A stretch of DNA of 64,000 nucleotides from Ignavibacteria bacterium (GTDB lineage Bacteria; Bacteroidota; Ignavibacteria; Tepidaquicellales; Tepidaquicellaceae). Location of the stretch: assembly GCA_036262055.1 (NCBI GenBank), contig DATAJP010000001.1, positions 310,001 to 374,000 of the forward strand. Reading direction: 5' to 3'. Both the position numbers and the translations under genes were made by a program. Positions 46,904 through 64,000 of the stretch are shown in pieces. Every line of letters starts with the position of its first letter. The stretch's first letter is position 1. The notes beneath the pieces were generated by a model. It had not been told where the DNA came from. It was given only the letters and a program-made list of their open reading frames with translations, and did not search any database.

Positions 46904-48046
46904 ATGGATAAATTAGAAAATAAGTCATTATCATTATTTGAATTAGTAAGAATAATTCGTTTCAATATTAAAAAGATTTTAATAGCTACATTGATTGTGG
47001 GAGTTCTATCTGCTTTTATAGCCTTTTTTGTGCTTATACCCGTATTTTTTTCATCTTCAACTGTTAAATCGACTTCAAAAGGCGGGGGGTTAGGGGCATT
47101 ATTAGGAGGATTGGATGTTGGAAGCGGGTTAGGAGATTTTGTAGAGGGGGGGACGACATCTGCGTCGAAAGAATTAGCACTTTATGAAGATATTTTAACC
47201 AGTAGAAAATGTATTGAAGAAACAATTGTAAAATTTAATTTGAATAGTGAATGGGAATATAAATATATGCAGGACGCTGTGAAAAATTTCAGAGATAATA
47301 TAATGGAACTTGCATCCAATAAGCAATCAGGTGTTATGTTTATAGGTGTTTATGATAAAAAACCTGAACGAGCAAAAGAGATTGTAGATTTTTTAATATA
47401 CCAGCTTAATAAGATGAATGTTGAGCTAAATGTACAAAATGCTAGAAATAACAGGGTATTCATAGAGGAGAGATATTTGCTTAGTAAAAAGGAACTTGAA
47501 CAGGCGGAAGATAGTCTTGAATCCTTTCAAAATATATATGGTGTCGCACCAGATTTAACTATAAGAGCTGCTGTTCAAGGACAAATCCAAATAGAAACAG
47601 AGATTAAATCAGAAGAAGTTAAACTTGATATATTAAAAAAAATCTTGACTCATGATCAACCGGAAATTAAAGCTCAGGAAGAAAAGATAAAAGCGTTATA
47701 TAAACAATTAGAAATTATTAAAAATAGTGAAACAGGGAATAATAATTTAAGTTTAAAAGGCAGCCCAAATGTTGCAATGGATTTCCTTAGGTTGCAAAGA
47801 AATGTTGAGATCCAAACCAAAATTCTCACGTTTATTTTGCCATTGTTTGAACAAGCAAAGATAGAAGAAAACAAAGAAACCCCTTCTGTAATAATAATGG
47901 ATCCTTCATTTCTACCGGAAAAAAAAGCAAAACCTAAGAGAATGACAATTGTACTAGTTTGTATGTTCTTAACTTTTGCATTAATGAGCACTTTTTATAT
48001 AATAAAATATAAATATATTGAGGCAACTAGCGATTCAAAAATATAA
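46904..48046 (+). CDS. Chain-length determinant protein (Wzz-family, GNVR domain)
   Basis: An inner-membrane polysaccharide co-polymerase of 380 aa without a kinase domain. TM1 is at about 22-48 (ILIATLIVGVLSAFIAFFVL), then a Gly-rich insertion (GGGLGALLGGLDVGSGLGD), a long periplasmic coiled coil (about 150-310) and the typical Pro-rich segment before TM2 (PSFLPEKKAKPKR, then MTIVLVCMFLTFALMSTFYI). It controls chain length in the Wzy pathway. The missing BY-kinase domain suggests that any tyrosine kinase is separate or absent. Its 3' end overlaps the next gene by 29 bp. Confidence 0.9.
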   Translation: MDKLENKSLSLFELVRIIRFNIKKILIATLIVGVLSAFIAFFVLIPVFFSSSTVKSTSKGGGLGALLGGLDVGSGLGDFVEGGTTSASKELALYEDILTSRKCIEETIVKFNLNSEWEYKYMQDAVKNFRDNIMELASNKQSGVMFIGVYDKKPERAKEIVDFLIYQLNKMNVELNVQNARNNRVFIEERYLLSKKELEQAEDSLESFQNIYGVAPDLTIRAAVQGQIQIETEIKSEEVKLDILKKILTHDQPEIKAQEEKIKALYKQLEIIKNSETGNNNLSLKGSPNVAMDFLRLQRNVEIQTKILTFILPLFEQAKIEENKETPSVIIMDPSFLPEKKAKPKRMTIVLVCMFLTFALMSTFYIIKYKYIEATSDSKI

Positions 48047-49229
48047 AGACTTGTTTAGTTTTTTAATTTCAAAAATTGAAATAAGTTTTTTTATAGTTTA
48101 TTTCCCAATATTATTTATTGTTGATTCAATTACTTTACATGTAATATATTTTCTTTTTGTCACTATCCTTTTTTTATTAACCAGGTCCACGCAATCTATA
48201 AAATTTAATTTATTCGATTCTTCTCTTTGGTTTTTTTTACTTTTTTGGGGGGTATTTATTTTTACTAAATCAGATTTTGATTATGGATGGAAAAATTATA
48301 CTTATGTAATTTTAGCACCGTTTCTAATCTTTTTTTTAATACAAAATCTTAATTTAAATGAAAAATCTTATTTAAAATTATTTAACTGTATTTTAATTTC
48401 GGGTGCAGTTTTGTCTTTGTTTTCTATTTACGTTTTTTTTGTTTTTGGATTTAATTTGAGACTAAGATATTCCTCTTTGTGGAATCATGTGAATATGGTA
48501 TCCGGTTATTTATTGTTATGTTTTATGATAGGTCTGTCATTTACATTTTATTTGAAAAATAATAAATATAAAATTTTACATATAATATTGTCATTAAGTT
48601 GTTTATTTGGAATTATTTTAACGCAATCACGCGGAGTTTGGCTTTCACTTATAGTTGCCATAATATTAATGTTTATCAACAAGCCCAAGAAATTTATAGT
48701 CTTAAGCGTTTTCTTAGTTCTTATCTTTTTCGCATTCTCAACAATAATTCTGGATAGAGTAAATTCTGTTTTACTGTTTGCTAATGACGTATCTTCTCTC
48801 GGGAGATTACAGGCATGGCTTGCAACTATTATCTTGTTAAAGGAAAATTATTTAACAGGGTATGGTTTCTATACTTTTTCTATATATAAAGATTATGTGT
48901 TTGATTATTATTTCGTTCCAGTGACAAACTCTCATAATACTTTTCTAAATTTATTTTTTGAAATGGGTGTACCTGCTTCTATAATATACTTATCGTTTTA
49001 TTTTAGAAGCATTTATTATTGCATTAGGAATATGTCTAAGAGAATGAAAAAAGATGAAAATATACATATTCTACTGAAAACAATATTGTTATCAATATTG
49101 CCTTTTATAATTGCATTTATGTTTGAGCCATATTTTGGTTTTTATGGACCAATAAATTTAGCATTATGGTTGATGATAGCAATCGCCTTTAAGATCAATA
49201 CTGATATAAAATTAACTAATCAAATTTAA
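48018..49229 (+). CDS. O-antigen ligase/polymerase-like membrane protein (Wzy/WaaL type)
   Basis: A polytopic membrane protein of 403 aa with about 11 hydrophobic segments and one large periplasmic loop near residues 270-320. Typical marks are ILTQSRGVWLSLIVAIILM (the SRG segment with essential Arg) and SHNTFLNLFFEMGVPASII (conserved H-N in the loop). Polymerase and ligase cannot be told apart by sequence; in a locus with Wzx and Wzz, polymerase is likely. The start is TTG at 48018 and overlaps the Wzz gene by 29 bp. No ATG occurs in a suitable place. The region is very A/T-rich. Confidence 0.8.
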   Translation: MRQLAIQKYKDLFSFLISKIEISFFIVYFPILFIVDSITLHVIYFLFVTILFLLTRSTQSIKFNLFDSSLWFFLLFWGVFIFTKSDFDYGWKNYTYVILAPFLIFFLIQNLNLNEKSYLKLFNCILISGAVLSLFSIYVFFVFGFNLRLRYSSLWNHVNMVSGYLLLCFMIGLSFTFYLKNNKYKILHIILSLSCLFGIILTQSRGVWLSLIVAIILMFINKPKKFIVLSVFLVLIFFAFSTIILDRVNSVLLFANDVSSLGRLQAWLATIILLKENYLTGYGFYTFSIYKDYVFDYYFVPVTNSHNTFLNLFFEMGVPASIIYLSFYFRSIYYCIRNMSKRMKKDENIHILLKTILLSILPFIIAFMFEPYFGFYGPINLALWLMIAIAFKINTDIKLTNQI

Positions 49230-49231
49230 GA

Positions 49232-50704
49232 ATTACGTCTTTTCTAAAAGCCACAAGCAAGTTTACATTTGTAACAATTGCAAATAGTATAAATTCCTTT
49301 ATCAGGACAAAACTAATAGCAGTATTTCTGAATGTTGCAGGTGTGGGAATTTATGCTCAATTCCAAACTTTTTATTCATTATTAACATTTGCAACTCCAT
49401 TAGGTTTGCAAAATGGGATAATTAAATGTACATCGGAGATCACCTCTGAAAATGATTCTGAAAAATTAAAATTATTATATTATGATTCCATAAAATTATT
49501 GCTTATTTCCTCCGTATTTTTTTCCATATTTATTTTCTTAATCTCCAGCCAAGTATCAAGTCTTTTATTAAATGATAGTAGCTACTCTCATTACATAATG
49601 TTAATGGCATTTGGAATAATATTTATAAATTTTTATTATTTTTTTGATTCTTTCATTAAGGGTTTAAAGATAATTGATTTATATGTAAAAATTTCAATAA
49701 TTTCTATTTTAGTAACAATTATTTTAAGTATTCCGCTCATAATTTATTATGGATTAATGGGGGCAGTTGCTGCACTATTTTTAACTCCTATTAGCTTTAG
49801 TACCTTTTCAGTGTTTTTTTTAAATCGCCACAAATTAATTCCAAGCCCACATAATCTTTTTTCGCTAAAATTTCAGAATTTTTCTTTAATCAAGCATCTA
49901 TTGTCAATAGGATTTGCATTTATATTAGTAGGTGTAATTAATCAATCATCACTCTTAATAGTTAGAAAATTAACTATAGACAATCTGGGAATTTATTCAA
50001 ACGGATTATTGCAATGTGCTTTTGCTTTTTCAATAAATTATTTTGGGATTATTTTTTCATCTATTTCGGCTTATTTATTTCCTCGTTTTTCAGCATTAAA
50101 TTCAAAAGAATCATGCAATGAATTTATCAATATTAATTATAGAAATGTAATAATTTTGATAACAATTCTATTTTCGATTATATATGTTTTTAAAAATCTT
50201 TTTATAATTATTTTATATTCTAATGATTTTCTGCCTGCGGCTTATCTGTTTAAATTTCAATTTGTTGGAGATTATTTTAAGGCTATAAGCTGGATTTTTG
50301 GGTTATGGCTTATTCCTAGGTTTAAATTGAAATTATATATTATAGCTGAGTTTATTTTTTCAACAATTTTTGTTTTATCTTGTTATGCTTTTTTGGAATT
50401 TTTTTCGAAAGACTTATCGTTAGTATCGGCATCTTACCTCATATCACAAGTAGCATTATGTTCAATTTATTATTTTTTTTATAAAACCGAGAATAAATTT
50501 AAATTTAACAAAGGAAGTTTAATACTGACAATTACTTCGTTATTTTTGATAATATCAGTGATTATTATTACTGATACTTTCAACAATGTAATTTCATATA
50601 TATTTTGTTTTATTCTTTTGTTTGCCTGGATGGTTATTATTTTGAATAAGGAAGAAAAAAACAAAATATATCATTTATTAAAATTAAATAGAAATAAGAA
50701 TTGA
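49232..50704 (+). CDS. Wzx-type polysaccharide flippase, start codon probably ATT
   Basis: An oligosaccharide-lipid flippase of the MATE-like/PST family with 12-14 helices. The first ordinary start (GTG 49343) would cut the conserved N-terminus. In the same frame upstream the sequence reads TSFLKATSKFTFVTIANSIN and SFIRTKLIAVFLNVAGVGIY, the expected first helix of a Wzx protein. The frame is open to 49220, and between there and 49343 the only plausible start is ATT at 49232, 3 bp after the upstream stop. The length from that point is 490 aa, normal for the family. Its stop (TGA) overlaps the TTG of the next gene. Confidence 0.75.
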   Translation: MTSFLKATSKFTFVTIANSINSFIRTKLIAVFLNVAGVGIYAQFQTFYSLLTFATPLGLQNGIIKCTSEITSENDSEKLKLLYYDSIKLLLISSVFFSIFIFLISSQVSSLLLNDSSYSHYIMLMAFGIIFINFYYFFDSFIKGLKIIDLYVKISIISILVTIILSIPLIIYYGLMGAVAALFLTPISFSTFSVFFLNRHKLIPSPHNLFSLKFQNFSLIKHLLSIGFAFILVGVINQSSLLIVRKLTIDNLGIYSNGLLQCAFAFSINYFGIIFSSISAYLFPRFSALNSKESCNEFININYRNVIILITILFSIIYVFKNLFIIILYSNDFLPAAYLFKFQFVGDYFKAISWIFGLWLIPRFKLKLYIIAEFIFSTIFVLSCYAFLEFFSKDLSLVSASYLISQVALCSIYYFFYKTENKFKFNKGSLILTITSLFLIISVIIITDTFNNVISYIFCFILLFAWMVIILNKEEKNKIYHLLKLNRNKN

Positions 50705-51594
50705 TCAGCATAATTCTGACTTCGTTTAATAGAAAAAATTTACTAAAAAAATCTCTTGAAAGTATATTAAATCAATCATATAGAGATATAGAAGTAATCA
50801 TAATTGATAATAATTCCACTGATGGAACAGAAGAAGAGCTTTCAACTTACCGGGACCCCAGAATTAATTTTTTTAATGTAGGAAGTGTAAACAATTTAGG
50901 AAAATCAAGGAATATAGGAATTAGTAAAGCAAAAGGAGATTTAATTGCTTTTTGTGATGATGATGATATTTGGTATCCGGATAAATTAGAGTTTCAATTG
51001 AAATACGTGCATATTACAGGAGTAGTATGCACCGACGTAGATTATGTGGATAAAGATAATGTAATAATAAAAAAATCAATTTTTCCTGATAAAATATCAG
51101 ATTTGATATTTAGTAAAGCTACGTTACTATACCAAAACTTAATAATGGTAACTAGTGTGCTAATAGACAAAGAAATATTATTAAAAGCAGGACAATTTGA
51201 TTCTTTAAGATATTGTGAAGATTATGACTTATGGATGAGAGTTACCGATTTTACAAAAATTATTTTTTTAAATAAAATATCCATGGCAGTTATGGTTCAT
51301 GCTAATAGTTTATCAAGAATTAATCAAAATGCTATCGATATGCGTTATATAATTATTAAGCATCAATTAAAATATATTAAAAGTCCAGATAAAGAATTAA
51401 AAATAGCATCAAAAGCTGGATTAGTAAAAAGCAGATATCAATTATTTAGATTATTAATATCTAATAAAAGGTATTTTGATTCTTTAAAAGAACTTTTTAG
51501 ATTAATTCCGTTTATATCGGATATAAATGTTGCAAAATTTTTTATTAAGGTTCTTTTTTTTAAAGAAAATTTTTTGTTAAAAAAATTGAATTGA
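50701..51594 (+). CDS. Glycosyltransferase family 2
   Basis: A 297-aa GT-A glycosyltransferase: ISIILTSFNRKNLLKKSLES at the N-terminus, VIIIDNNSTDGTEEEL with the UDP-binding Asp, then AFCDDDDIWYPDKLEFQLKY holding the metal-binding DxD-type run, and CEDYDLWMRVTDFTK with the likely base. It adds a sugar to the lipid-linked repeat unit; donor and linkage are unknown. The start is TTG at 50701, overlapping the flippase stop (TTGA). No ATG is nearby that would keep the first strand. The next gene starts 4 bp after its stop. Confidence 0.92.
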   Translation: MISIILTSFNRKNLLKKSLESILNQSYRDIEVIIIDNNSTDGTEEELSTYRDPRINFFNVGSVNNLGKSRNIGISKAKGDLIAFCDDDDIWYPDKLEFQLKYVHITGVVCTDVDYVDKDNVIIKKSIFPDKISDLIFSKATLLYQNLIMVTSVLIDKEILLKAGQFDSLRYCEDYDLWMRVTDFTKIIFLNKISMAVMVHANSLSRINQNAIDMRYIIIKHQLKYIKSPDKELKIASKAGLVKSRYQLFRLLISNKRYFDSLKELFRLIPFISDINVAKFFIKVLFFKENFLLKKLN

Positions 51595-51598
51595 CGTA

Positions 51599-52708
51599 AT
51601 GTTCAAAATTTTATTTGTTGTTGCATCCAGCGATATAAATGGTACGGAAAAAATTGCATTAGAAATTGCTAAAAATCTGAATTCTCAAAAATTTGAAGTG
51701 TATTTTGCAATACCAAGAGAAGGTAGTATTTCCAATGAATTGTACAATACTAATATTAAAGAAATTATTTTTAATGATGATGGAATTAATGTAATAACCT
51801 TTAAAGGCGCACGGAATTTATTTTCTATTATCAAAAAAAATAAATTTGATATTGTGCATTCACATTCAAGTTCAATTCCGGGCTTAGTTTCTAAAATCGC
51901 TAATGTTAATCTTAAAATTGAAACTCGCCACGGTCTTTTTTATTCCGATAATGAACTTGAACATCTTTCAATAAAAAGATTTTTTTTTGAATACACCAAA
52001 AAGTTCTATTTTGATTTAATCACTACTGTATCAGAAAATGATAAAAAAAGATTATCTAAATATTTTAAATATGATGAAGATAAAATGGAAACAATTTATA
52101 ATGGTTTAAATCTAGATGTATTTGAAAGTTACAAAAAGCATTATAATTCAAATGCTTCAGAAGATCTTTTGATAGGGAATGTAGGAAGATTGTCATATCA
52201 AAAAAATCATAAATTGCTTCTAAATGTGTTTTCAAAATTAATAAGTAAATTCCCGAATTTAAGATTGCAAATTATTGGAGACGGAGAATTAAAAAATGAT
52301 TTATTAAAACAAATTGAAGAATTAAACTTAAAGGGTAAGGTTGAACTTATCCCATATCAAAAAAATATTTATGAATATATTTCAAAATTTGATTTAATGG
52401 TAATGACTTCAAGATATGAGGGTGTTCCGCTAGTGATACTTGAGGCAATGGCTATTGGTGTCACTGTAGTTTCATCGGATGTTGGAGGGGTCAATGAAAT
52501 TATTAAAGACGGTAGAACAGGCATTTTAATAAATTCTTTTTATGATGATGATTTTGTAAAAAAGATTTCTGAATTAATTAATAGTTTTGAAAAAATTAAA
52601 GAAATCTCATTTAATGCATCAAAGGAAATTCAAAACTTTTCAGTTGAAAACATGGTTAAGAATTATGAAGACTTGTATTTGAGGCATTTAAATAAATTAT
52701 TTTATTAA
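51599..52708 (+). CDS. Glycosyltransferase family 4
   Basis: A retaining GT-B glycosyltransferase of 369 aa. N-terminal domain: ILFVVASSDINGTEKIALEI and HSHSSSIPGLVSKIA. C-terminal domain: LIGNVGRLSYQKNHKLLLNV (about 191), LRLQIIGDGELKNDL and the nucleotide-sugar motif MTSRYEGVPLVILEAMAIGV (about 270) with the conserved E-x7-E. TVVSSDVGGVNEIIKDGRTG follows. Last gene of the polysaccharide run, with an ordinary ATG. It is followed by a gap that contains the tRNA remnant. Confidence 0.93.
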   Translation: MFKILFVVASSDINGTEKIALEIAKNLNSQKFEVYFAIPREGSISNELYNTNIKEIIFNDDGINVITFKGARNLFSIIKKNKFDIVHSHSSSIPGLVSKIANVNLKIETRHGLFYSDNELEHLSIKRFFFEYTKKFYFDLITTVSENDKKRLSKYFKYDEDKMETIYNGLNLDVFESYKKHYNSNASEDLLIGNVGRLSYQKNHKLLLNVFSKLISKFPNLRLQIIGDGELKNDLLKQIEELNLKGKVELIPYQKNIYEYISKFDLMVMTSRYEGVPLVILEAMAIGVTVVSSDVGGVNEIIKDGRTGILINSFYDDDFVKKISELINSFEKIKEISFNASKEIQNFSVENMVKNYEDLYLRHLNKLFY

Positions 52709-52755
52709 TTTTCCATTTAAAAGAATCCTCAAAATTTAGTAAATAATACATTCTG

Positions 52756-52794
52756 CCGGAGTAGCTCAGCTTGTCAGAGCTTCGGAATCATAAA
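52756..52794 (+). pseudogene. 5' half of a tRNA-Met(CAT) gene
   Basis: The sequence folds as the first 38 positions of a tRNA: acceptor strand GCCGGAG, T8-A9 (TA), D stem GCTC / GAGC with loop AGCTTGTCA, position 26 T, anticodon-stem strand TCGGA and loop ATCATAA with anticodon CAT. The matching TCCGA strand, variable loop, T arm and CTCCGGC acceptor strand are missing. The break is at the end of the anticodon loop (AACTACC follows). I searched to 53305 and found no 3' half, so this is a remnant and not an intron-split gene. Confidence 0.75.
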
Positions 52795-52893
52795 ACTACC
52801 AACAAAAGTTCTTCCTATAACCACCATAAAATACTATAGGTTATATCTTTAAGTTTCATATTAATTCCCCACATTATTAAATGGGTTAAAGAT
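52795..52893. other. Short gap between tRNA remnant and integrase-like fragment
   Basis: A/T-rich with no convincing ORF or hairpin. The frame of the following fragment is open back to about 52858 without an ATG, which agrees with decay of a longer gene. Confidence 0.5.
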
Positions 52894-53154
52894 TTGTTCG
52901 GGATTTTTATAGAACAATTTAAAAGTAAAACGAGAAACCCTTTTTTGTTTAGAAATGAAGATGGTTATTGGGTAATTTTTACTCCTTTTAGAAAAGAAAA
53001 TGGTAAATGGGGAAGAAAATGTCAATCGACTAGGCCTAAGAAAGAAAAAGAAGCTCAGAGAATCTTCTATGAATTTATTAATGGGAATTATAAAAATTTG
53101 GAATATTTTTATAAAGAATGGGAAAAAGAAAATAAAGGAATAATGTATCGTTAA
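52894..53154 (+). pseudogene. Integrase-like N-terminal fragment
   Basis: An 86-aa ORF starting at TTG, with no preceding ATG in frame. The segment FRNEDGYWVIFTPFRKENGK plus GRKCQSTRPKKEKEAQRIFY resembles the N-terminal arm-binding and start of the SAM-like core-binding domain of phage-type tyrosine integrases (W-V-x-F.....G-K....T-x-x-K-K-E-A). The C-terminal catalytic R-H-R-Y part is missing. Position directly behind a half tRNA gene is a typical integrase-att arrangement. Assignment is by pattern only. Confidence 0.45.
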
Positions 53155-53305
53155 TTATTTGTCTTCTAGTCATATTTTTTACTATTAGTGAGTTCTCATA
53201 ACTTAATTATAATTAACTTTAGACATCATACCCTTTATCCCTATATATTTTCCCACTTTTTTTTCCTACCTTATATTCACATAAACAACTATTTATGGAA
53301 GAATA
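53155..53305. other. Leader of the sensor kinase gene
   Basis: About 150 A/T-rich bases with no gene. ATTTTTTACTATTAGTGAG and TTATATTCACATAAACAAC are visible, but no consensus promoter or hairpin is convincing. One overlapping ORF (53188) is a frame shadow of the kinase N-terminus. Confidence 0.4.
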
Positions 53306-56300
53306 ATGCTCAGAATAACATTATATTTTCTTCCTTTATTCATAATACAATTTGCTTCTGCACCGGCTTACTCACAATACAAAAACCAGCATGTAAGCCT
53401 TGAGCAAGGTTTACCTGCAGGAACTGCAGTCGAAGCCATAGTTCAGGATAACTTAGGATTTATGTGGTTTCCAGTACTTGGTGGAGTTGCCAAATATGAT
53501 GGATATTCTCTTTCATTGCATCAAAAATTTTTCACAGCGACAGACACTGTTTATTTGCCTGAAGTTCATGCAATTTTTATTGATAAGGAAAATAATATCT
53601 GGCTTGGTTCAGCTAATATGGTCGCTTTATATGACCGGAAGAAAGATATTTTTAATGCATTTTATTTGACTGTTGAGAAATCGGTTAATTCAATTGCAGT
53701 AATCTATGATATTCATGAGGGCAAAGACGGATTATTATGGATTTCAACGGAAGACAAAGGATTATTTTCATATGATAAAAAATCCAAGGTAACACAGCAT
53801 TATTTCCACGATGAAAATAATTCTAACTCATTAAACAGTAATGAAATTTCATCATTTACAATTGACAATGAAGGAAACCTTTGGGTTGGCTTTTATAGTG
53901 ACGGGTTATGCAAATATGAGCCTTCAAAAAACTTATATACCCGTTTTCATCGCAGTTCAAGCAGTAATTCAATTCCTTCCGATTCAATTCATAAATTATA
54001 TAAAGATTCTTCAGGCACAATCTGGATTGCATCCCGACAGGGTTATATAACCGAATTAAATCCACAGACAAATAAGTTTATTAATTATTCTATTCAAGGC
54101 GAAGGCGTAAACTCATCTGCAGTTATCTATTCACTGTTTGAGGATACAAGTGGATTAATTTGGATAGGAACATTTCGAGAAGGTGTTATATTATTCGATA
54201 AAAATAAAAATTTGTTTTATCCACTTCAAAAAAATATAAATGGAAAAGAAAAAGAAATAAATTATGTTTACAGCATTGCACAGGATAGAACAGGATTAAT
54301 ATGGATTGGAGGAATGGAAGGATTGCATATTATATCAAAGAATTTACAAAGCTTTGATTATTCATATGATAATCCATTTTTCATGAAAAATATTAAAAAT
54401 GCGGCAATTACATCTATCTTACCTGATAATGCTGGTAATTTATGGATAGGAACTTCAAACGGATTATATAAACACATTTATAATTCAAATGATTATCAGC
54501 ATTTTTTTTCTGATAATAATCCAAAAAGAGATTCTAAATTATTTGGCAATAATTCAATTCTTAATTTATGTTTCGATGATTCCGGTTCAATTTGGGTTAC
54601 TCTGTATTCAGGTTTATACAATTTGAATCCTTTAAATGGAAATGTTAAAAGTTATATACATAGCCAATCCGATACAAACAGCATTTCAGAATCACTGGAA
54701 ACCGGTTTATTAAAAGATAAAAAAGGAAATTTATGGATTTCTTCTCCAAAGAGTGTAGATAGGTTCATTACATCCAATGAAACATTTAAACATTACCCTT
54801 TACCTACTGTCCGTTCATTTTACGAAGATAATGATGGAGTAATATGGGCTTCGTCCGGGTCAAGGGGATTATATAAATATGATTCTTCAACCGATTCATT
54901 CATAGAATATTTTAATGAATCAGATTTCATTGGATTTTCAATTTCTCTTGAAGATAGTAAAAAAAGATTTTGGGCGGCAAGTTTTTATTCCGGATTGAAT
55001 TTATTTGATATAAAATCAGGAAAATCAGAAGTATTCGATACAAAATATGGATTGCAGTCGAATTTTGTAAATAACTTAATAATGGATAATATTGGAATGT
55101 TATGGCTTAGTACGAGAACAGGAATATCAAGATTTAATCCTGACACGAAATTCTTTAAAAACTTTACTGAAGAAGATGGGTTGAATATTCAGGATTTTCA
55201 GACAACCTCTGCTAACAAAAGTTCTGACGGTAAATTATATTTTGGAACAAGAAACGGCATGGTTAGTTTTTATCCTGCACCAATAAATACATTAGTTCCT
55301 GAAATTGTTTTAACGGGTTTAAAGCTGCATAATTTACCGGTAATTCCTTCTGATACATCTGCTATTAAGGAGAACATTAATATTACAAGTGAAATAAATT
55401 TAAATTATTACGATAATTCATTCATCATTTCATTTTCATCTCTTGATTATAATGATTCAAAGAAGAATTTATACTCATATAAATTAGAAGGATTTGATGA
55501 AGATTGGTCTTTTCCAGGGACGAACACTTCGGCATCTTATACTAATCTCAATGCTGGTGAGTATACTTTTTTGGTTAAGGGCTCAAACAGCGATGGTATC
55601 TGGAATGAAAACGGCGCAAAAATTAAAGTAATAGTTAATCCTCCGTGGTGGAAAACATGGTGGTTCACAGTGAGCTGGATATTTTTTGCAGCAATTGTTT
55701 TTGGAAGCACAATAAGGTTAATTTCAGTCCAGAAGCTAAAGAAAAAACTCAGAGAGCTTAAACAGCAACAGGTACTTGAAGCTGAAAGGACAAGAATTTC
55801 AAAAGACATGCATGATGAATTAGGCTCCAGTTTAACTAAAATTACACTGTTAAGTGAAATTGCCATGAAAAAAATCGGTAATCTTGAAGAAATAAATAAG
55901 ATTTCTGATGCTTCACGTGAAGTTGTTAATAGCATGGATGAAATTGTATGGGCTGTAAATCCTAAAAATGACTCGCTGGAAAACCTGGCGGCTTATACCT
56001 TACAGTATTCACAGAATTTTTTATCTGAAGCAGGCTTGAATTGCCGGTTTGAGTATCCCGATAGCATTCCTTCAAGCATGCTTTCATCGGATATTCGGCA
56101 TAATATTTTTCTTGTATTCAAGGAAGCACTGAATAATGTGGTAAAACATTCCGAAGCATCTGAAGTGAACATAAAGTTAATATTAAACAAAACCTTTTTC
56201 GAATTTTTAATTTCAGATAATGGAAAAGGATTTAATATGGAAGACTGTGATCGTTTTTCAAATGGATTAAGCAATATGGAAAAACGCATTGCCGACATTA

Positions 56301-56371
56301 ATGGTGAATTCAAAATAAGAACTCAATCAGATTTAGGAACCTTAATAAGCATAAAAATTTGTCATAACTAA
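53306..56371 (+). CDS. Beta-propeller sensor histidine kinase (two-component, Y_Y_Y and HisKA_3 type)
   Basis: A 1021-aa inner-membrane sensor: signal peptide (MLRITLYFLPLFIIQFASAP), 12-14 Reg_prop repeats forming two seven-bladed periplasmic propellers (about 30-690; repeats such as DNLGFMWFPVLGGVAKYDG and DTSGLIWIGTFREGVILFD), a Y_Y_Y domain (about 700-775, YSYKLEGFDEDWSF), one TM helix (about 785-808), a HisKA_3 dimerisation domain with His in RISKDMHDELGSSLTKI (about 834) and an ATPase domain (NNVVKHSEASEV, ISDNGKGFNME). The kinase type is NarX/DesK-like. The response regulator is 68 bp downstream. Ligand unknown, probably a glycan or peptide sensed in the periplasm. Confidence 0.93.
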   Translation: MLRITLYFLPLFIIQFASAPAYSQYKNQHVSLEQGLPAGTAVEAIVQDNLGFMWFPVLGGVAKYDGYSLSLHQKFFTATDTVYLPEVHAIFIDKENNIWLGSANMVALYDRKKDIFNAFYLTVEKSVNSIAVIYDIHEGKDGLLWISTEDKGLFSYDKKSKVTQHYFHDENNSNSLNSNEISSFTIDNEGNLWVGFYSDGLCKYEPSKNLYTRFHRSSSSNSIPSDSIHKLYKDSSGTIWIASRQGYITELNPQTNKFINYSIQGEGVNSSAVIYSLFEDTSGLIWIGTFREGVILFDKNKNLFYPLQKNINGKEKEINYVYSIAQDRTGLIWIGGMEGLHIISKNLQSFDYSYDNPFFMKNIKNAAITSILPDNAGNLWIGTSNGLYKHIYNSNDYQHFFSDNNPKRDSKLFGNNSILNLCFDDSGSIWVTLYSGLYNLNPLNGNVKSYIHSQSDTNSISESLETGLLKDKKGNLWISSPKSVDRFITSNETFKHYPLPTVRSFYEDNDGVIWASSGSRGLYKYDSSTDSFIEYFNESDFIGFSISLEDSKKRFWAASFYSGLNLFDIKSGKSEVFDTKYGLQSNFVNNLIMDNIGMLWLSTRTGISRFNPDTKFFKNFTEEDGLNIQDFQTTSANKSSDGKLYFGTRNGMVSFYPAPINTLVPEIVLTGLKLHNLPVIPSDTSAIKENINITSEINLNYYDNSFIISFSSLDYNDSKKNLYSYKLEGFDEDWSFPGTNTSASYTNLNAGEYTFLVKGSNSDGIWNENGAKIKVIVNPPWWKTWWFTVSWIFFAAIVFGSTIRLISVQKLKKKLRELKQQQVLEAERTRISKDMHDELGSSLTKITLLSEIAMKKIGNLEEINKISDASREVVNSMDEIVWAVNPKNDSLENLAAYTLQYSQNFLSEAGLNCRFEYPDSIPSSMLSSDIRHNIFLVFKEALNNVVKHSEASEVNIKLILNKTFFEFLISDNGKGFNMEDCDRFSNGLSNMEKRIADINGEFKIRTQSDLGTLISIKICHN

Positions 56372-56439
56372 ATTAACACTTATGTGTTATTGTGTTCATT
56401 TCACAAAAGCCGTATTTTGTTATAAAAAAAATAGAGTTA

Positions 56440-57066
56440 ATGCCTATAAAAGTATCAATTGTTGAGGACAATAGCGGAATAAGAGAGAGTCTTGAAATTC
56501 TTATAAATGGTTCTGAAGGATTTACCTGTCTTAGTACATATAAAAATGCAGAGTCCGCCTTGATAAACATTCCGCATGAAAAACCCGATGTCATTTTAAT
56601 GGATATTAATCTTCCCGGTGAAACGGGAATTCAATGCGTAAGTAAGTTGAAATCCAAATTCCCTGAATTAAATATATTAATGCTTACGGTTTATGATGAC
56701 AGCACAAGAATTTTCGAAGCATTATCTGCGGGTGCAAACGGATATTTGCTTAAAAGAACCCCGCCATTGAAACTGCTTGAAGCAATTAAAGAAGTTAACC
56801 AGGGGGGCTCACCGATGTCGAGCCAGATTGCAAGAATGGTGGTTGATTCATTTAAGGGTATGGGAATTTCGTCAGAGGAAAAAAAGAACTTAACTAAGCG
56901 TGAGGAGGAAATTCTGTCACTTCTTGCCAAAGGTTTCAAATATAAAGAAATTGCTGAAAAATTATTTATCGGAACTGAAACAGTAAGAAGTCATCTAAGA
57001 AATATTTATGAAAAGCTCCAAGTGCGCTCCCGCACTGAAGCAGTTGTTAAGTATTTAAAAGGATAA
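56440..57066 (+). CDS. NarL/LuxR-type response regulator
   Basis: A 208-aa regulator with a receiver domain (about 1-120: acidic pocket VSIVEDNSGIRESL, phospho-acceptor Asp in VILMDINLPGETG, Lys in YLLKRTPPLKLLE) and a LuxR-type helix-turn-helix (about 145-205: LTKREEEILSLLAKGFKYKE, then IGTETVRSHLRNIYEKLQVR). The frame is open to a GTG at 56392, but the ATG at 56440 (MPIKVSIVEDN) gives a clean receiver start. Partner of the propeller kinase just upstream. It is followed by secreted-protein genes on the same strand, which are likely targets. Confidence 0.93.
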   Translation: MPIKVSIVEDNSGIRESLEILINGSEGFTCLSTYKNAESALINIPHEKPDVILMDINLPGETGIQCVSKLKSKFPELNILMLTVYDDSTRIFEALSAGANGYLLKRTPPLKLLEAIKEVNQGGSPMSSQIARMVVDSFKGMGISSEEKKNLTKREEEILSLLAKGFKYKEIAEKLFIGTETVRSHLRNIYEKLQVRSRTEAVVKYLKG

Positions 57067-57093
57067 TTAAGTATAAAATTTTAATTATTTAAA

Positions 57094-58698
57094 ATGAAAA
57101 AATATTGTTTATTAATTACTTATAACATATTCCTTTCAACCCTTTATGCAACAGCTTTTGCACAAAACCTATTTCAAGTAGCTGTAGGAGGTTCTGGAAG
57201 TGATATTGCATATACTATAATACAAACTGATGATGGCGGGTATGTCGCTGCTGGTTCGACTAATTCTTTTGGGGCAGGTCTCAATGATATTTACATTGTA
57301 AAGATAAATTCTAATGGTTTACTTCTTTGGACGAAGACATTTGGAGGTTCTGGAGCGGATAATGCAAATTGTATCATTCAAACCTCAGATGGGGGGTATA
57401 TAGTAGCCGGTTCTACAAATTCTTTTGGTGCGGGACTACTTGATGTTATGGTCTTGAAAATTAACTTTACCGGAAATCTTGAATGGTTCAAAGTTTTTGG
57501 AGGAGAAGATATTGACTTTGCTAACTCAATTATACAAACTTCAGATAATAGTTATATTATTGCAGGAGAAACGTATTCTTTCGGATCTGGAGGTGAAGAC
57601 ATGTATATTATTAAATTAGATTCAGGAGGGAATTTTGTGTGGAACAAAGCAATCGGGGGTTTCGGAGATGATAGAGCTTCCTGTATTGTGCCAACTTTTG
57701 ACGGAGGCTATGCTGTAGCAGGCAGAACAACTTCTTATGGGGCTGGATTTAACGATGTTTTCATAATGAAGCTTAATGAAAGTGGGTTAGTGATGTGGAG
57801 TAAAACAGTCGGTACGAGTACCGGTGATGCAGCCTTTTCCATAATACAGACAAATGATAGTGGATTTGTCTTGGGGGGGCATACTGAACCGAGCCAATCA
57901 CAACATTATTTATTGAAATTTAATGCCATTGGAACGTTAGAATGGACTAGATATATTGCTTCCAGTTCAGGATTTATAACCAAAGTTCCTGTTATCCAAA
58001 CTCCGGATGGAGGCTATGCTTTGGCTGGTTTTACGACTATTGGGTCAAGTGGTAATGATATAATAATTTTAAAATTTCTTGAAAACGGAACTCCCCAGTG
58101 GTTTAAAAAAATTGGAGGTACAGGCAGCGATATTGGTTGCTCATTAATACCCATTACATCTGGAGGTTTTGCTTTAGCTGGTTATACTTCTTCATATGGA
58201 TCAGGTGGGAATGATATTTTTATAACAAAACTGGATTATAATTTGAACACTTGTGGAAATATAACTTTCTTATCAATTTCATCTGGTTCATGGGGATCTG
58301 TTTCATCACCAACTCCAATAGTTACTATACCAACACTAACAATAACATCCCATACTCCAATAATAGGTTCGGGAGGGACTTTAACATCTATTTGCAATAT
58401 CGTTAATATTTCTTCTCAGGAAATTAAAGCACCAAATGAATTCACTCTTTTACAAAACTACCCAAATCCATTTAATCCTTCTACAGTTATTAAATTTCAG
58501 ATTCCAAATAATGAATTTGTATCTTTGAAAATTTATGATATGTTAGGTCATGAAGTAGAAACACTAATTAATGAGCATTTAACTTCAGGAACTTATGAAG
58601 TTGAATGGAATGCAGAAGATTATTCGAGCGGAATATATTTTTGTAAGCTTCAAGCAGAAGAATATGTAGAAATTAAAAAAATGATATTGATGAAATGA
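57094..58698 (+). CDS. Secreted repeat protein (GGYVAAG-type propeller) with T9SS sorting domain
   Basis: A 534-aa protein with signal peptide (MKKYCLLITYNIFLSTLYAT). Seven repeats of about 50 residues, each with D-G-G-Y-x-x-A-G and an N/D-I-x-x-x-K-L/I-x-x-x-G-x-x-x-W strand (for example TDDGGYVAAGSTNSFGAG and IYIVKINSNGLLLWTKTFGG), are consistent with a seven-bladed propeller (about 28-390). Then come a short G/S/T-rich linker and the sorting domain (QNYPNPFNPSTVIKFQI at about 453, ending EIKKMILMK). Its stop overlaps the next gene by 4 bp (ATGA), so the two are coupled. It lies 28 bp after the regulator gene. Confidence 0.85.
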   Translation: MKKYCLLITYNIFLSTLYATAFAQNLFQVAVGGSGSDIAYTIIQTDDGGYVAAGSTNSFGAGLNDIYIVKINSNGLLLWTKTFGGSGADNANCIIQTSDGGYIVAGSTNSFGAGLLDVMVLKINFTGNLEWFKVFGGEDIDFANSIIQTSDNSYIIAGETYSFGSGGEDMYIIKLDSGGNFVWNKAIGGFGDDRASCIVPTFDGGYAVAGRTTSYGAGFNDVFIMKLNESGLVMWSKTVGTSTGDAAFSIIQTNDSGFVLGGHTEPSQSQHYLLKFNAIGTLEWTRYIASSSGFITKVPVIQTPDGGYALAGFTTIGSSGNDIIILKFLENGTPQWFKKIGGTGSDIGCSLIPITSGGFALAGYTSSYGSGGNDIFITKLDYNLNTCGNITFLSISSGSWGSVSSPTPIVTIPTLTITSHTPIIGSGGTLTSICNIVNISSQEIKAPNEFTLLQNYPNPFNPSTVIKFQIPNNEFVSLKIYDMLGHEVETLINEHLTSGTYEVEWNAEDYSSGIYFCKLQAEEYVEIKKMILMK

Positions 58699-60044
58699 TA
58701 AAGATAATTATTATAAACTTTGTATTTGTATTCCTAGCTGCCGGAAATGTTTCAGGTCAATGGACGCTGGTGAACGTTCTTTCGGACCTTGGTCAATTTC
58801 CTTGTCTCTCGGTTTATGGTCCTAATGAGCTAGTAATTGCAGGTGGAGGGATAAATACACCTAAAGTTTATAAATCAACCAACGGCGGAATTAGTTTTAT
58901 AAATATTTCCGGTAATCTGACAGGACCTAAGATATTTTCAATATATGCAGTAAATGAGAATTTAATTTTTGCAGGAGATGGCGGTTCATTTAGCGGAGCC
59001 GGTGGAAATGCAAAATTATGGAAAACAACAAACGGTGGATTAAACTGGTCAGTTGTTCTTTCAACGGGTGGAATATATGGATTTTTCAATGGAATTATTT
59101 TTTCTAAAACAAATCCTTCCTTCGGAATTGCAGTGAGTGATGCACCGACCGACGCTGAATTTTTTGTAGCAAAAACTACTAATGGAGGAAATAATTGGAT
59201 TATTCAGAGTAATACTCCATCAGGTTTTGGTCTCAATGGAGTGCTTGGTTCAGTTTTTTGTATTGATGAGTTTTTTTATGGCTGGGGAATGGGGCCTTTT
59301 CCAATTCAGATTACATTTACTTCAAACGGCGGAAGTTCATGGTTAGTGCATCAAAATATTGGTTTAGCATCTTCAAGATATGCTACCGGTCTTGCATTTA
59401 GTGATGATAAATTAACAGGATTAATTGTCGGAGATGAATCGCTGCCAATAATATCACGTTCAACTGATGGGGGGAATACCTGGAATGATATTAATACAGG
59501 TTTGACAATGTCCGAATCGGAATATTCAAGAATTAAATGGGTTCATGGAACCAATGTATGTTTTATCACGTCAACTTATGGAATGAAAGGATGTATAGGT
59601 AAAAGCACAAACGGTGGTTTGAGCTGGATAGAGATGAATACTGCCGGGATAAGTGCATTAAAATCAATTGATGCATTAGTTTCAGGTGAAAATATCTACG
59701 GTTATTCTGTATCAGCATTTGGCGAAATAATTAGACTGCAACAAACTGTAGGAATTAAAAATCTGAATAGTGATATAGTATTTCAGTATAAACTCGAGCA
59801 AAACTTTCCTAATCCATTTAATCCTGAAACAAAAATAAGATTTCACGTTAAAAGCAATGATTTAATACAAATAAAAATTTATAATGTTTCGGGAAAAGAA
59901 ATAGAAACTCTCTTGAAGGAGAACTTACCGTACGGAGTCTATGAAGTAAAATTGGATGCATCAAGTTTGCCAAGCGGAGTTTATTATTATACTCTGATTG
60001 CACAAAATTTTAAAGAAACAAAAAAAATGGTTTTATTAAAATAA
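58695..60044 (+). CDS. Secreted YCF48/BNR-type beta-propeller protein with T9SS sorting domain
   Basis: A 449-aa protein with signal peptide (MIKIIIINFVFVFLAAGNVS). Propeller repeats include VYKSTNGGISFINIS, LWKTTNGGLNWSVV, VAKTTNGGNNWIIQ and ISRSTDGGNTWND. The sorting domain starts at about 370 as QNFPNPFNPETKIRFHV (F in place of Y) and ends ETKKMVLLK. It overlaps the previous gene by 4 bp and is 15 bp from the next, so it belongs to the same operon as the repeat protein and the S41-like protein. Confidence 0.85.
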   Translation: MIKIIIINFVFVFLAAGNVSGQWTLVNVLSDLGQFPCLSVYGPNELVIAGGGINTPKVYKSTNGGISFINISGNLTGPKIFSIYAVNENLIFAGDGGSFSGAGGNAKLWKTTNGGLNWSVVLSTGGIYGFFNGIIFSKTNPSFGIAVSDAPTDAEFFVAKTTNGGNNWIIQSNTPSGFGLNGVLGSVFCIDEFFYGWGMGPFPIQITFTSNGGSSWLVHQNIGLASSRYATGLAFSDDKLTGLIVGDESLPIISRSTDGGNTWNDINTGLTMSESEYSRIKWVHGTNVCFITSTYGMKGCIGKSTNGGLSWIEMNTAGISALKSIDALVSGENIYGYSVSAFGEIIRLQQTVGIKNLNSDIVFQYKLEQNFPNPFNPETKIRFHVKSNDLIQIKIYNVSGKEIETLLKENLPYGVYEVKLDASSLPSGVYYYTLIAQNFKETKKMVLLK

Positions 60045-60059
60045 ACTTATCTTAAAAGA

Positions 60060-61874
60060 ATGAAAATTTTAATGATTACCATCCTTACGTTTATATTTTG
60101 TAATATAAATGCACAAAGTATAGATAATAATTTTAATAATTTTAAAAAAAATCAATTTAATAATTCCCTGAATGAAAATATTTACGTAACAAAGGAACCG
60201 GGACATTTTACATGTGAACAATGGAGGCATAAAATAGATTCTGTGTGGGGAACAGGAGCATCAACAACAACAAAGCTGCAAGTTTTTGACAGGTTCTGGA
60301 ATTTAATCGATACTGTGTTTGCTTGTTTCCATAATCACCCTGTTAGTTGGGATTCATTAAAAAAAGTTTACAGACCTGAAATTGCAGGGGGTGTAAGCAG
60401 AGGAAGGTTTATTGCAATCATGAATCACATTGTTTTAGCGCTTAAAGAATCACATACACATGTTTTAGATTTTGGTCTTAATACAACGCTTCGCGCAGGT
60501 GTGCCGCTTCTTGTACTCGGAGGATGGTACGATAATGGACATTTCGGCGCAGGTCTCACTCCTTTACCGGATAGTTCACTGCTTGTTTATAGTGTAGTTC
60601 CATTGCACCCTTTAGGGTTGCAAAAAGGTGACATCGTTTTAGGATATGATGGAGTTCCCTGGCGGATTCTTGTAAGAGAATTGATTGAATGTGAACTACC
60701 CATTAAATTGATTTCTTGGATTGGTTCTTCTCCAAGTGCTTACAATCACTCTTTATTAATGAGTGCCGGAATGAACTGGCATCTATTTGATACCATCGAT
60801 ATAGTCAAAGGAGCCACGGGTGATACTCTCCATTTTTCAACAGCGGCATTAAGAAATCAAAATATGCAAATTTTCTGTACTGAACAGATGGATATACCCG
60901 GGATATCAAAACCTAATTACAATGCTGAGCAAATGTGCACTTATGGTATTTTACCCGGAACAAACATAGGGTATATTTATGTTTGGGGCTGGTGGGGACC
61001 AAATGTTGAAATGGAATTTTACAATGCTGTCCAGGCATTAATGCAAACTCAAGGAATGATTATTGATTTCCGGTTTAATGATGGCGGAAATATGAACTTG
61101 AGTGATGCAGGTTTAAGTTTACTGTTCGATACTACAGTTACTACAATAGATATGGGAAAACGATGCTCCCCCAATCATCAACAAATGTGTCCCTTAAATA
61201 TTCCGTTTGCTTATTATATACCGGGGGCTTCTCCAGGATATAATAAACCAATCGCTATACTTACAGGTCCGGGAGCAGTAAGTTCAGGTGACCAGGTTGC
61301 ACTAAGAATGAAGTATCATCCTCACTCACGATTTTTTGGTAAATCAACTGCTGCTGCGTTTAATGCACCATTTGAATATGGATATTCAGGATATGGTTTG
61401 TTGCTTGCAGAAGCTGATGCTTATAAATTGAGTAATCCCGGTACATATCTGACTCATACAGAATTTGAAGTTGATGAAAATGTATGGTTGTCACAAAATT
61501 TAGTTAGACAGGGTCGGGATGATGTTTATGAAGCAGCCAAACATTGGATCGATAGTGTATCAGTCGGAATATCAGTGCAAAATTCTGAAATGCCTCTTAA
61601 ATTCAGCTTAAAACAAAACTATCCTAACCCGTTTAATCCTACAACAAAAATAAAATTTGAAATTCCTTCACTTAACATTGGAGCAAACCTAAATATAAAA
61701 CTGGCTATTTATGATTTGCTTGGAAGAGAAGTCTCAGTTCTGGTGAATGAAAAATTAGAAGCAGGAATATATGAATATTCATGGGACGGAGGTAGCTTTT
61801 CCTCAGGGTTATATTTTTATAAATTAGAATCTGATAATTTTACTGAAACAAAAAAAATGCTTCTTTTAAAATAA
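60060..61874 (+). CDS. Secreted S41-like (C-terminal-processing-type) peptidase with T9SS sorting domain
   Basis: A 604-aa protein with signal peptide. An S41/tail-specific-protease-like core is at about 55-490: the helical N-lobe (GVSRGRFIAIMNHIVLALKE), a PDZ-like part (GLQKGDIVLGYDGVPWRIL), IIDFRFNDGGNMNLSDAGLS and ILTGPGAVSSGDQVALRMKY, whose Ser-Ser-Gly-Asp corresponds to the SAgE catalytic-Ser site. GKSTAAAFN is the following loop. The catalytic Lys is not certain, so activity is unproven. The sorting domain begins at about 510 (QNYPNPFNPTTKIKFEI) and ends ETKKMLLLK. A close paralogue follows 243 bp downstream. Confidence 0.8.
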   Translation: MKILMITILTFIFCNINAQSIDNNFNNFKKNQFNNSLNENIYVTKEPGHFTCEQWRHKIDSVWGTGASTTTKLQVFDRFWNLIDTVFACFHNHPVSWDSLKKVYRPEIAGGVSRGRFIAIMNHIVLALKESHTHVLDFGLNTTLRAGVPLLVLGGWYDNGHFGAGLTPLPDSSLLVYSVVPLHPLGLQKGDIVLGYDGVPWRILVRELIECELPIKLISWIGSSPSAYNHSLLMSAGMNWHLFDTIDIVKGATGDTLHFSTAALRNQNMQIFCTEQMDIPGISKPNYNAEQMCTYGILPGTNIGYIYVWGWWGPNVEMEFYNAVQALMQTQGMIIDFRFNDGGNMNLSDAGLSLLFDTTVTTIDMGKRCSPNHQQMCPLNIPFAYYIPGASPGYNKPIAILTGPGAVSSGDQVALRMKYHPHSRFFGKSTAAAFNAPFEYGYSGYGLLLAEADAYKLSNPGTYLTHTEFEVDENVWLSQNLVRQGRDDVYEAAKHWIDSVSVGISVQNSEMPLKFSLKQNYPNPFNPTTKIKFEIPSLNIGANLNIKLAIYDLLGREVSVLVNEKLEAGIYEYSWDGGSFSSGLYFYKLESDNFTETKKMLLLK

Positions 61875-62117
61875 CTTACTTTCTTTAATGAATCCGGTCT
61901 CTCAACAACCCATATATTCCTTTAATATTTAATAAGTAAATCCAAATCCTCTAACACGAAAGTGTTAGAAACCAACCTCAATATATAATACTTATATAAT
62001 AATTCACACTCTTGTGCTATGTATAAAAAACATAAGTGTAATTAAATTATACCAAACTTGAAAAATAAATTTTAGTCTTAAGAAAATAAAATTTAAAACT
62101 ATAATTAAAAAAACCAT
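61875..62117. promoter_or_regulatory. 243-bp gap between S41-like paralogues with a hairpin
   Basis: 61951-61968 forms CTAACAC / GTGTTAG with a GAAA loop. A looser CACTCTTGTG...ACATAAGTGT pairing follows (62007-62040). There is no T-run, so it is not a clear terminator; mRNA stabilisation or a regulator site are both possible. A similar short palindrome TAACACTTATGTGTTA occurs at 56374-56389, just after the sensor kinase. Confidence 0.45.
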
Positions 62118-64000
62118 ATGAAAAATTTCAAAAGACTTATTTTAGGAATAATTTTATTTTTTACATTTGTTATAAACTCATTTTCACAATGGGATACAAA
62201 GAATAACAATTTACCGGGTAATATTGATGTGATTTCAGATATTTTTATTAAACCGGAATTAGAAAACCAAATTTCCATTTCAACTCATAGTTTTCCCGTT
62301 CAAAATAGAACTGCAGCGGATTGGAGACGCGCCATTGATTCGGTTTGGGGAGCAGGTTTACCAACTGCCACAAAACTTCAAATTTTTGATAAGTTTTGGA
62401 ATAAAATTGATTCTTCTTTTGCATGCTTCCATGACATAACTGATAACTGGAGCGCATTGAAGCTACAATACCGTTCTGAAGTTGCAAACGGAGTAAGCCG
62501 GGGAAGATTTGCTGCAATTATGTGTTACCTTTCTCTCGCTTTGCGTGAAGGTCATACAAAAGCAACAGATAATATTTTAATGAATACAAATATTTCACAG
62601 GGTACCCCGCTTTTATTAATAGGTGCATGGAGTGACAGCCGCAGGTTTGGTGCCGGACTTACACCGCTTCCCGACAGTTCTCTGCTTGTTTATAGTGTTG
62701 TTCCGAATCATCCTATAGAACTTCAGCGCGGAGACATAGTATTGGGATATGATGGAATCCCCTGGAAAGTTTTAGTATATCAACTTCTTAGTTATGAATT
62801 GCCATTCATCGGATGGTGGGGATGTTCTCCGACTTCATTTACTCACAGTTTATTGATGTCTGCAGGAAGGAACTGGCATTTATTTGATACTATTGATGTC
62901 GTTAAATATGGAACTAATGATACGGTTCACTATCCCACATCACTTCTTGCGGGACAAACTCAATCTATACTAACTACAGAGCAAATGGATATTTCAGGTG
63001 TTCCTAAACCCGATTATTTCGGAGGGACATATGTATCTCACGGTAAAATTCAGGGAACAAATATAGGATATATTTATTGCTGGGGTTGGTCAGGCAATGC
63101 CGGAACTTTGTTTTACAATGCAGTCCAAGCGCTTAAACAAACTGATGCACTTATTATAGATTTCAGGATGAATTTTGGCGGGAATATGTTCTTAAGCGAC
63201 TCAGCAATGAAAGTATTATTTAATTCAACCTTCCCAACAATCGATTGGGGAAAAAGAACCAGTCCTACAAATCACTTACAATTAACTGCATTAAATGTTT
63301 CTGCAAATTATAAAATTAAGGGAGTTCCTCCGGGATATTTAAATCCTATTGCAGTATTAACCGGACCGGGTGCCCTAAGCTCAGGTGATCAGGTTGCACT
63401 AAGAATGAAGTATCATCCGAGGGTAAGGATTTTTGGAAAATCAACAAGTACAGCATTCAATAGTCCGGTAACATTAAATCTTCATGCTGATTGGACCTGC
63501 GCATATGCAAATAGTGATGCATATGAAACTCATACCCCCGGCAGGTATCTAACTCATCTTGAATTTCCAGTCGATGAAAATGTGTGGCTTACACGCTCAG
63601 GAGTTGCACAAGGACGTGATGACGTTATTGAATCTGCACTAAATTGGATTAATATTTTTTCGGGTAACTCATCAACTTTACTCTTCGATAACGCAGAAAG
63701 TGGATTTGGAAAATGGGAAACAAATGAAGGATGGTCAGTAATAAAAAGTAATGCGTATTCACCGGTTAATTCATTTACCGAGAGCTCCAAAGGCAATTAT
63801 AAAAATAATGCAAATAATTCACTGACTTTAAAAAATTCCATTAACGTTTCCAATACAAGTGCTTTAGTTTTAAGTTTTTATCACAAATATGCAACACAGC
63901 TTGACAAAGATTTTTGTAGAGTAGAAATATCCAGCAACAATGGGGCTACATGGCAGCAGGCAGTAAGCTATTCGGGTACCGTCAGTACGATTCATCAAAT
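62118..64000 (+). CDS. S41-like secreted peptidase paralogue, partial (3' end outside window)
   Basis: An ATG at 62118 opens a frame that runs to the window edge (627 codons). Signal peptide: MKNFKRLILGIILFFTFVIN. The core matches the preceding protein closely in order and motif: RRAIDSVWGAGLPTATKLQI, GVSRGRFAAIMCYLSLALRE, LQRGDIVLGYDGIPWKVL, IIDFRMNFGGNMFLSD and LTGPGALSSGDQVALRMKYH. After about residue 515 it continues with a jelly-roll domain (DNAESGFGKWETNEGWSVIK, NNGATWQQAV) like the MAM-type domain of InhA/M6 peptidases, absent from the first copy. A sorting domain is expected beyond the edge. Confidence 0.8.
   Translation, partial: MKNFKRLILGIILFFTFVINSFSQWDTKNNNLPGNIDVISDIFIKPELENQISISTHSFPVQNRTAADWRRAIDSVWGAGLPTATKLQIFDKFWNKIDSSFACFHDITDNWSALKLQYRSEVANGVSRGRFAAIMCYLSLALREGHTKATDNILMNTNISQGTPLLLIGAWSDSRRFGAGLTPLPDSSLLVYSVVPNHPIELQRGDIVLGYDGIPWKVLVYQLLSYELPFIGWWGCSPTSFTHSLLMSAGRNWHLFDTIDVVKYGTNDTVHYPTSLLAGQTQSILTTEQMDISGVPKPDYFGGTYVSHGKIQGTNIGYIYCWGWSGNAGTLFYNAVQALKQTDALIIDFRMNFGGNMFLSDSAMKVLFNSTFPTIDWGKRTSPTNHLQLTALNVSANYKIKGVPPGYLNPIAVLTGPGALSSGDQVALRMKYHPRVRIFGKSTSTAFNSPVTLNLHADWTCAYANSDAYETHTPGRYLTHLEFPVDENVWLTRSGVAQGRDDVIESALNWINIFSGNSSTLLFDNAESGFGKWETNEGWSVIKSNAYSPVNSFTESSKGNYKNNANNSLTLKNSINVSNTSALVLSFYHKYATQLDKDFCRVEISSNNGATWQQAVSYSGTVSTIHQ

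Follow-up and report, generated by a model that had tools for sequence, protein, structure and literature searches.

The 64,000-nucleotide stretch of DNA analyzed here (the window) carries the 5′ half of a tRNA-Met gene beside a short ORF, and this feature is probably the integrase-proximal (attL-like) junction of a decayed integrative element that split tRNA-Met. The initial annotation had proposed the scar of an element that integrates at a tRNA anticodon loop, a proposal supported by the half tRNA, the match of the adjacent ORF to an arm-type domain and the layout around the integrases of relatives. The features are listed in Table 1.

Table 1. Features at and around the tRNA-Met scar, with coordinates in the window.
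Feature	Position	Strand	Basis or remark
Glycosyltransferase gene at the end of the polysaccharide locus; chromosomal side under the best reading	51599..52708	+	
tRNA-Met(CAT) 5′ half, positions 1-38, decayed	52755..52792	+	35/38 identities to the intact copy at C4:143790-143864
Stretch from the presumed crossover (anticodon loop) to the ORF; presumed element-side attachment arm	52793..52893	+	Without tRNA 3′ half; spacing as in relatives
86-aa ORF, probable truncated N-terminal remnant of a tyrosine integrase	52894..53154	+	Profile matches; predicted helix, then strand-strand-strand-helix
Arm-type domain profile alignment, residues 35-82 of the frame from 52840	52942..53085	+	Profile search
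Junction, remainder of integrase missing	53155..53305	.	No significant further piece found
ORF side of the scar, candidate island interior	53306..64000	+	Five proteins scanned

The initial annotation proposed a search for an intact tRNA-Met elsewhere in the genome as a check on its reading, and one was found on the minus strand of contig C4 (tRNA-Met(CAT), 143790-143864). The half in the window matches this gene over 43 nt (E 3.2e-11), with 35/38 identities over positions 1-38, which had been described as perfect. The description of the remainder as missing, with the break in the anticodon loop, was correct: the next 37 bases share 11/37 identities with the absent 3′ half, which is chance level, and the best score of 52793-52900 against the 3′ halves of 90 reference tRNAs was reached by 193/200 shuffles. 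Homology to the tRNA ends at position 38, the 3′ edge of the anticodon loop. The fragment reaches the 5′ end of the gene and breaks at the presumed crossover site in the anticodon loop, as is characteristic of a 5′-fragment-type tRNA-gene genomic island. A full tRNA with a decayed 3′ half is ruled out by the uneven decay between the two halves, and a chance tRNA-like sequence by the E value of the match to the intact gene.

Three changes separate the half from the intact copy. One falls on the first G of the D-loop GG pair, which is conserved across all intact copies listed, another on position 26, which is G in all intact copies listed except L025 (A), and the third is also present in two intact genes (L023 and L025). 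From these differences it looks like a decaying half. Partial tRNA matches are rare in this genome, with 4 at E up to 0.01 per 939,946 bases scanned, the window half included. ARAGORN and Rfam at its gathering cut-off made no call anywhere in the window, and Rfam at a loose threshold gave no tRNA. A promoter comparison upstream of the half found only about TTCT in common with the sequence upstream of the intact gene.

The ORF beside the half is a probable truncated N-terminal arm-domain remnant of a tyrosine integrase. It is called from a TTG start, and the open frame itself spans 52840-53151. The 86 aa had no match in Pfam, PHROGs or PDB sequences, chance matches only in NCBIfam and in phage and plasmid records, and none confirmed among viral contigs; across 44 genomes of the order, only its own genome matched (1/44). 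The silence of Pfam on the fragment is not counter-evidence, because six complete integrases scanned in the same way have their first ~56 residues uncovered, with no match before residue 57.

Three arm-domain profiles were built. The first holds the N-termini of 13 relatives, the second 19 sequences (17 of 20 fetched same-order mobile-type integrase loci and the genome's own L010 and L011), and the third adds 22 N-termini, some repeating earlier ones. No member was picked for likeness to the fragment, and the first two profiles omit L147 (start mis-called), L155, L157, L012 and the second integrases of L148 and L158. Over 5506 ORFs, the fragment ranked 20th with the 13-sequence profile (E 0.0071) and 23rd with both the 19-sequence profile (E 0.0038) and the third profile (E 0.0017). 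The higher-ranking entries (19, 22 and 22, respectively) are all integrases, many of which had served to train the profiles; with the 13-sequence profile, L010 and L011 do not outrank the fragment. Shuffled versions of the fragment reached its score in 0/5000 cases with the 13- or 19-sequence profile. The support remains modest because an unrelated piece of a prolyl oligopeptidase (L156:3011-3499) scores almost as well with the 19-sequence profile (E 0.0051 vs 0.0038 for the fragment); with the other two profiles this false positive reached E 0.2 and 0.02, behind the fragment by 4.6 and 3.5 bits.

Arm-type domains are expected to show a strand-strand-strand-helix order. A single-sequence AlphaFold model of the fragment (pLDDT 64) has a first helix and then this same order, so both the profile match, with its modest sequence support, and the order of elements agree with the arm-type N-terminal domain of the Ignavibacteria integrases. 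In a viral fold library an integrase was the top hit (E 0.057, prob 0.99), tied in E with an uncharacterised protein, and a PDB fold search of the model returned nothing significant. The catalytic motif of tyrosine integrases is R..H-x-x-R..Y. The PF00589 catalytic domain is absent from the ORF and no second piece was found, so the ORF is at most a remnant; no significant further integrase piece turned up in the window or in the examined stretches near contig ends. The initial annotation's view of a decayed, integrase-like ORF has modest support. The profile search that it proposed gave nothing significant in Pfam, PHROGs or phage records, and the other curated libraries are silent as well, whereas the arm-domain profiles made from the order's own integrases rank only integrases above the fragment. 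The profile result lends modest support to an integrase origin, which the position of the ORF beside the tRNA half strengthens.

The arrangement in the window recurs around the integrases of relatives. We examined 66 integrase ORFs (45 and 21 further) for tRNAs or pieces of them, using 61 to 90 reference tRNAs. The first 45 comprise three of the genome's own integrases and 42 from 38 relative loci, picked by length among the matches listed and with Xer-like integrases excluded. The second batch covered 30 of 80 kept loci, nine of them repeats of earlier ones and 21 new. Layouts were assigned by reading the search output. A tRNA or piece stands ≤300 bp upstream of the integrase in 34/66 ORFs. 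These are seven 5′ pieces codirectional with the integrase (L145, L146, L152, L156, L159, L227 and L231), seven 3′ pieces antiparallel to it (L148, L153, L160, L161, L162, L204 and L233), and full tRNA genes, 17 codirectional and three antiparallel. The 5′-displaced layout is thereby assigned to 10/34 integrases, three of them inferred from the full antiparallel tRNA, and the 3′ layout to 24/34, with 17 inferred from the full codirectional tRNA.

Of the 14 truncated pieces upstream, 13 clearly have their cut end towards the integrase, and the cut lies mostly in the anticodon arm. The 5′ pieces end at positions 35-48 (L159 at 44, or at 56 against another reference), and the 3′ pieces begin at positions 25-31, except for L162 (13); the L233 piece, positions 29-49, is cut on both sides. 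A tRNA or piece lies within about 300 bp downstream of ten further ORFs among the first 45. L207 breaks the facing rule, with its tRNA piece downstream of the integrase and the other end facing. At L203, a 3′ half between two integrases overlaps the called start of the second; it was counted with the first integrase and would break the facing rule if it belonged to the second.

In the window, the Met 5′ half points in the same direction as the fragment and precedes it by 100-146 bp, depending on the start chosen, a layout that fits the codirectional 5′-piece group. In the comparison with relatives, which the initial annotation had suggested, a 5′ half in the same direction, about 100-146 bp before a complete arm-domain integrase, is found repeatedly. 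L156 was dropped as a tRNA-Met case, as the fuller tRNA set gives tRNA-Asn 1-39 at 100%. At this locus three successive tRNA-Asn 5′ pieces (100%, 81% and 83%) stand upstream of one integrase, as if elements had repeatedly arrived and been lost at one site.

Three cases, at tRNA-Lys, tRNA-Leu and tRNA-Met, show what would be a displaced 5′ half and a rebuilt tRNA marking the two ends of an element. The first is in the same genome, where C2:1021388-1079063 (L174, L011) looks like a whole 5′-type island at tRNA-Lys(ctt), with an integrase present and ends 57.7 kb apart. Its intact end is at C2:1021388-1021460, and at its integrase end (L011) a 155-bp upstream region and the 5′ half are repeated on the same strand with 93% identity. 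Like the window, it has a 5′ half, there repeated with the upstream region, and an intact codirectional tRNA at the other end; it differs in having a complete integrase with another N-terminus and in the half lying beyond the integrase 3′ end. The second case, in the relative G032 (L194, L195), resembles the window more closely in layout, with a tRNA-Leu(gag) 5′ half 116 bp before the integrase and in the same direction. There the integrase is complete, an intact tRNA-Leu follows 26.4 kb on in the same direction, and matches to DrmA, DrmB, DrmMII and Vsr indicate a DISARM defence system aboard. The intact tRNA at the far end was thus reached in one integrase-bearing relative followed across (G032) and in the genome's own tRNA-Lys island.

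The third case is a 3.5-kb element in G035 (L032:3110-6613) bounded by a repeat of about 110 bp that comprises, by eye, an upstream region and the tRNA-Met 5′ half. It has no visible integrase and shares an ORF, at 66% identity, with the G032 island. A HicA/HicB-like pair, recognized by eye and without a PADLOC match, lies between the 5′ half and the intact tRNA-Met.

Other tRNA duplications were seen in passing. At C2:403471-414168 of the same genome (L086:3472-14169), an intact tRNA-Leu(taa) is followed closely by an inverted 5′ piece and, 10.6 kb on, by a perfect 61-bp 3′ repeat. This region looks like a 3′-type island, and none of the five PF00589 matches falls there. Short extra copies of the first ~15 tRNA-Met bases, followed by a GCCTGCCTGA-like palindrome, precede the intact gene in G032 (L017, L036) and G031 (L022); in G032 they stand in tandem.

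We propose that the element's tyrosine integrase made its crossover within the tRNA-Met anticodon loop. The element would have brought its own promoter and tRNA-Met 5′ half, and its integration would have displaced the chromosomal 5′ half, which is the piece now in the window. An intact tRNA-Met would have been rebuilt at the other end of the element, and the C4 gene may be this rebuilt copy. The island would then extend rightwards from the scar. Later, the integrase would have been truncated behind its arm domain, and mutations would have accumulated in the unused half.

Where the far end lies depends on how the contigs join. Near-identical copies of one gene stand at four of the eight contig ends. 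The right end of C1 (385653) and the left end of C2 hold its N-terminal part, the right ends of C3 and C4 hold its C-terminal part, and both parts are found in one ORF in two relatives (887 aa in G017 and 886 aa in G002). By eye, the similarity of the C4 copy to the C3 copy ends inside an apparent terminator. Because this gene seems to be present twice in the genome, the right end of C1 joins that of either C4 or C3, and each join can form a single circle. If C1 joins C4, the half and the intact tRNA-Met are codirectional and about 26 kb apart, in agreement with the proposed reading. GC skew, which was noisy over 44 sampled stretches, places the origin near C2:540 kb and the terminus near C3:380 kb by eye, and the replichores derived from it by hand measure 1535/1332 kb for the C4 join vs 1803/1064 kb for the C3 join. 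The more even split with C4 favours an island of ~26 kb, short of proof. Given this join, the far end of the element is possibly the C4 tRNA-Met gene about 26 kb on.

Relatives, none of them of the same genus, were compared around tRNA-Met. The genes after it (TetR-TolC-RND) adjoin it in two of three g8 genomes (G019 and G027, not G007) and lie within 20 kb of it in G025 and G015, and the genes before it are variable among the relatives compared. The left flank of the window was not found near tRNA-Met in eight relatives, over ≤40 kb on the upstream side, nor were any window genes found near it in the eight, repetitive sorting-domain or propeller matches aside. In the window itself, the polysaccharide locus left of the scar (48001-53000) has 24-26% GC vs 30-38% right of the scar, and an IS1595/ISXO2-like transposase is encoded before this locus (42094-43005, minus strand).

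A possible alternative is that the element was almost wholly deleted, so that some 400 bp remain (52755 to about 53155) and the region to the right is ordinary chromosome. An integrase cut after its first domain, with no other significant piece of it found, agrees with such a loss, as does the gene content right of the scar, which includes a Reg_prop/Y_Y_Y sensor kinase, a LuxR-type response regulator, proteins with secretion-sorting tails and an S41 peptidase. No mobile-element protein was found among the five proteins scanned there, which are regulators, sorted proteins and a peptidase. However, the G032 island likewise carries mixed cargo, and if C1 joins C4, a near-total deletion turns the position of the intact tRNA-Met, past the right contig end and in the orientation expected, into a coincidence.

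It is unlikely that the ORF has nothing to do with integrases and that the half tRNA is a stray duplication, for example a pseudogene formed by illegitimate recombination. Such an origin would explain why curated libraries do not recognize the ORF and why an unrelated protein scores almost equally with one of the three profiles, but it conflicts with the ranking of the fragment in all three and with the shuffle test. It would also place one of the genome's few partial tRNAs (4 in 939,946 bases) by accident ~100 bp before the best arm-profile match outside the integrases.

We consider it quite improbable that the 5′ half is the element's own (attP side) and that the whole element arrived by another route, which would make both flanks foreign. 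The AT-rich polysaccharide locus (24-26% GC, 48-52.7 kb) that directly adjoins the half could be read in this way, although polysaccharide loci are often AT-rich. In the two complete integrase-bearing cases, moreover, it is the displaced half that lies beside the integrase, with the rebuilt gene at the far end.

That the half is a retro-copy, a tRNA 5′ half cut in the anticodon loop, reverse-transcribed and inserted, would suit the position of the break, as the anticodon loop is where tRNA halves are cut, but is scarcely credible: inspection by eye of the window ORFs of ≥150 aa revealed no reverse transcriptase, and the same halves beside complete integrases in relatives need integrase action only.

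Read as an integrase-proximal junction, the scar most likely belongs to an element type that is already known and rare. Under this reading it would share with the Islander class with a displaced 5′ fragment the split tRNA gene, the fragment and rebuilt gene as end marks, a tyrosine integrase aboard and, among the site types reported there, an anticodon-centred crossover (PMC4383910). Unlike the islands of that class, the window has a probable stump of an integrase, a decayed half and a far end that is only inferred. In the Islander account, 3760 of 3919 islands have 3′ fragments and 159 have 5′ fragments, and 2083 sites are anticodon-centred (PMC4383910). Archaeal pTN3-like elements also use the tRNA 5′ half and supply the promoter from which the rebuilt tRNA is expressed, as described in a review according to which such expression from the element's side is rarely encountered in bacteria (PMC8371274); the window case differs from them in being bacterial. 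Another known group, of phages, does not restore the tRNA and arrives with a complete one (PMC10865867). We found no description of the present integrase class in Ignavibacteria in the open-licence literature. Its 5′ layout in 10/34 integrases, three of them assigned from a full antiparallel tRNA, compares with about 4% 5′ fragments in the Islander account (PMC4383910), and the frequency with which this class appears to use the 5′ half is possibly the new part.

Taken alone, the scar is ordinary, the trace of an integration at tRNA-Met long ago and possibly the edge of an island. It is quite possible, and tentatively suggested by the relatives' loci, that an integrase class of Ignavibacteria and related Bacteroidota recognizes the symmetric anticodon stem-loop, with no preference for the tRNA half that the element restores; the window would then be the fossil of a promoter swap at tRNA-Met. 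If this is true, integration of a 5′-type element puts an essential tRNA gene of the host under a different promoter. Should 5′-half elements be common in the lineage, searches designed around 3′ fragments may have counted too few of its islands, and some of its tRNA genes may be driven by mobile-element promoters. For fragmented metagenome-derived genomes, we suggest the rule that the cut end of an upstream tRNA piece faces the integrase, which could serve to locate the ends of such elements.
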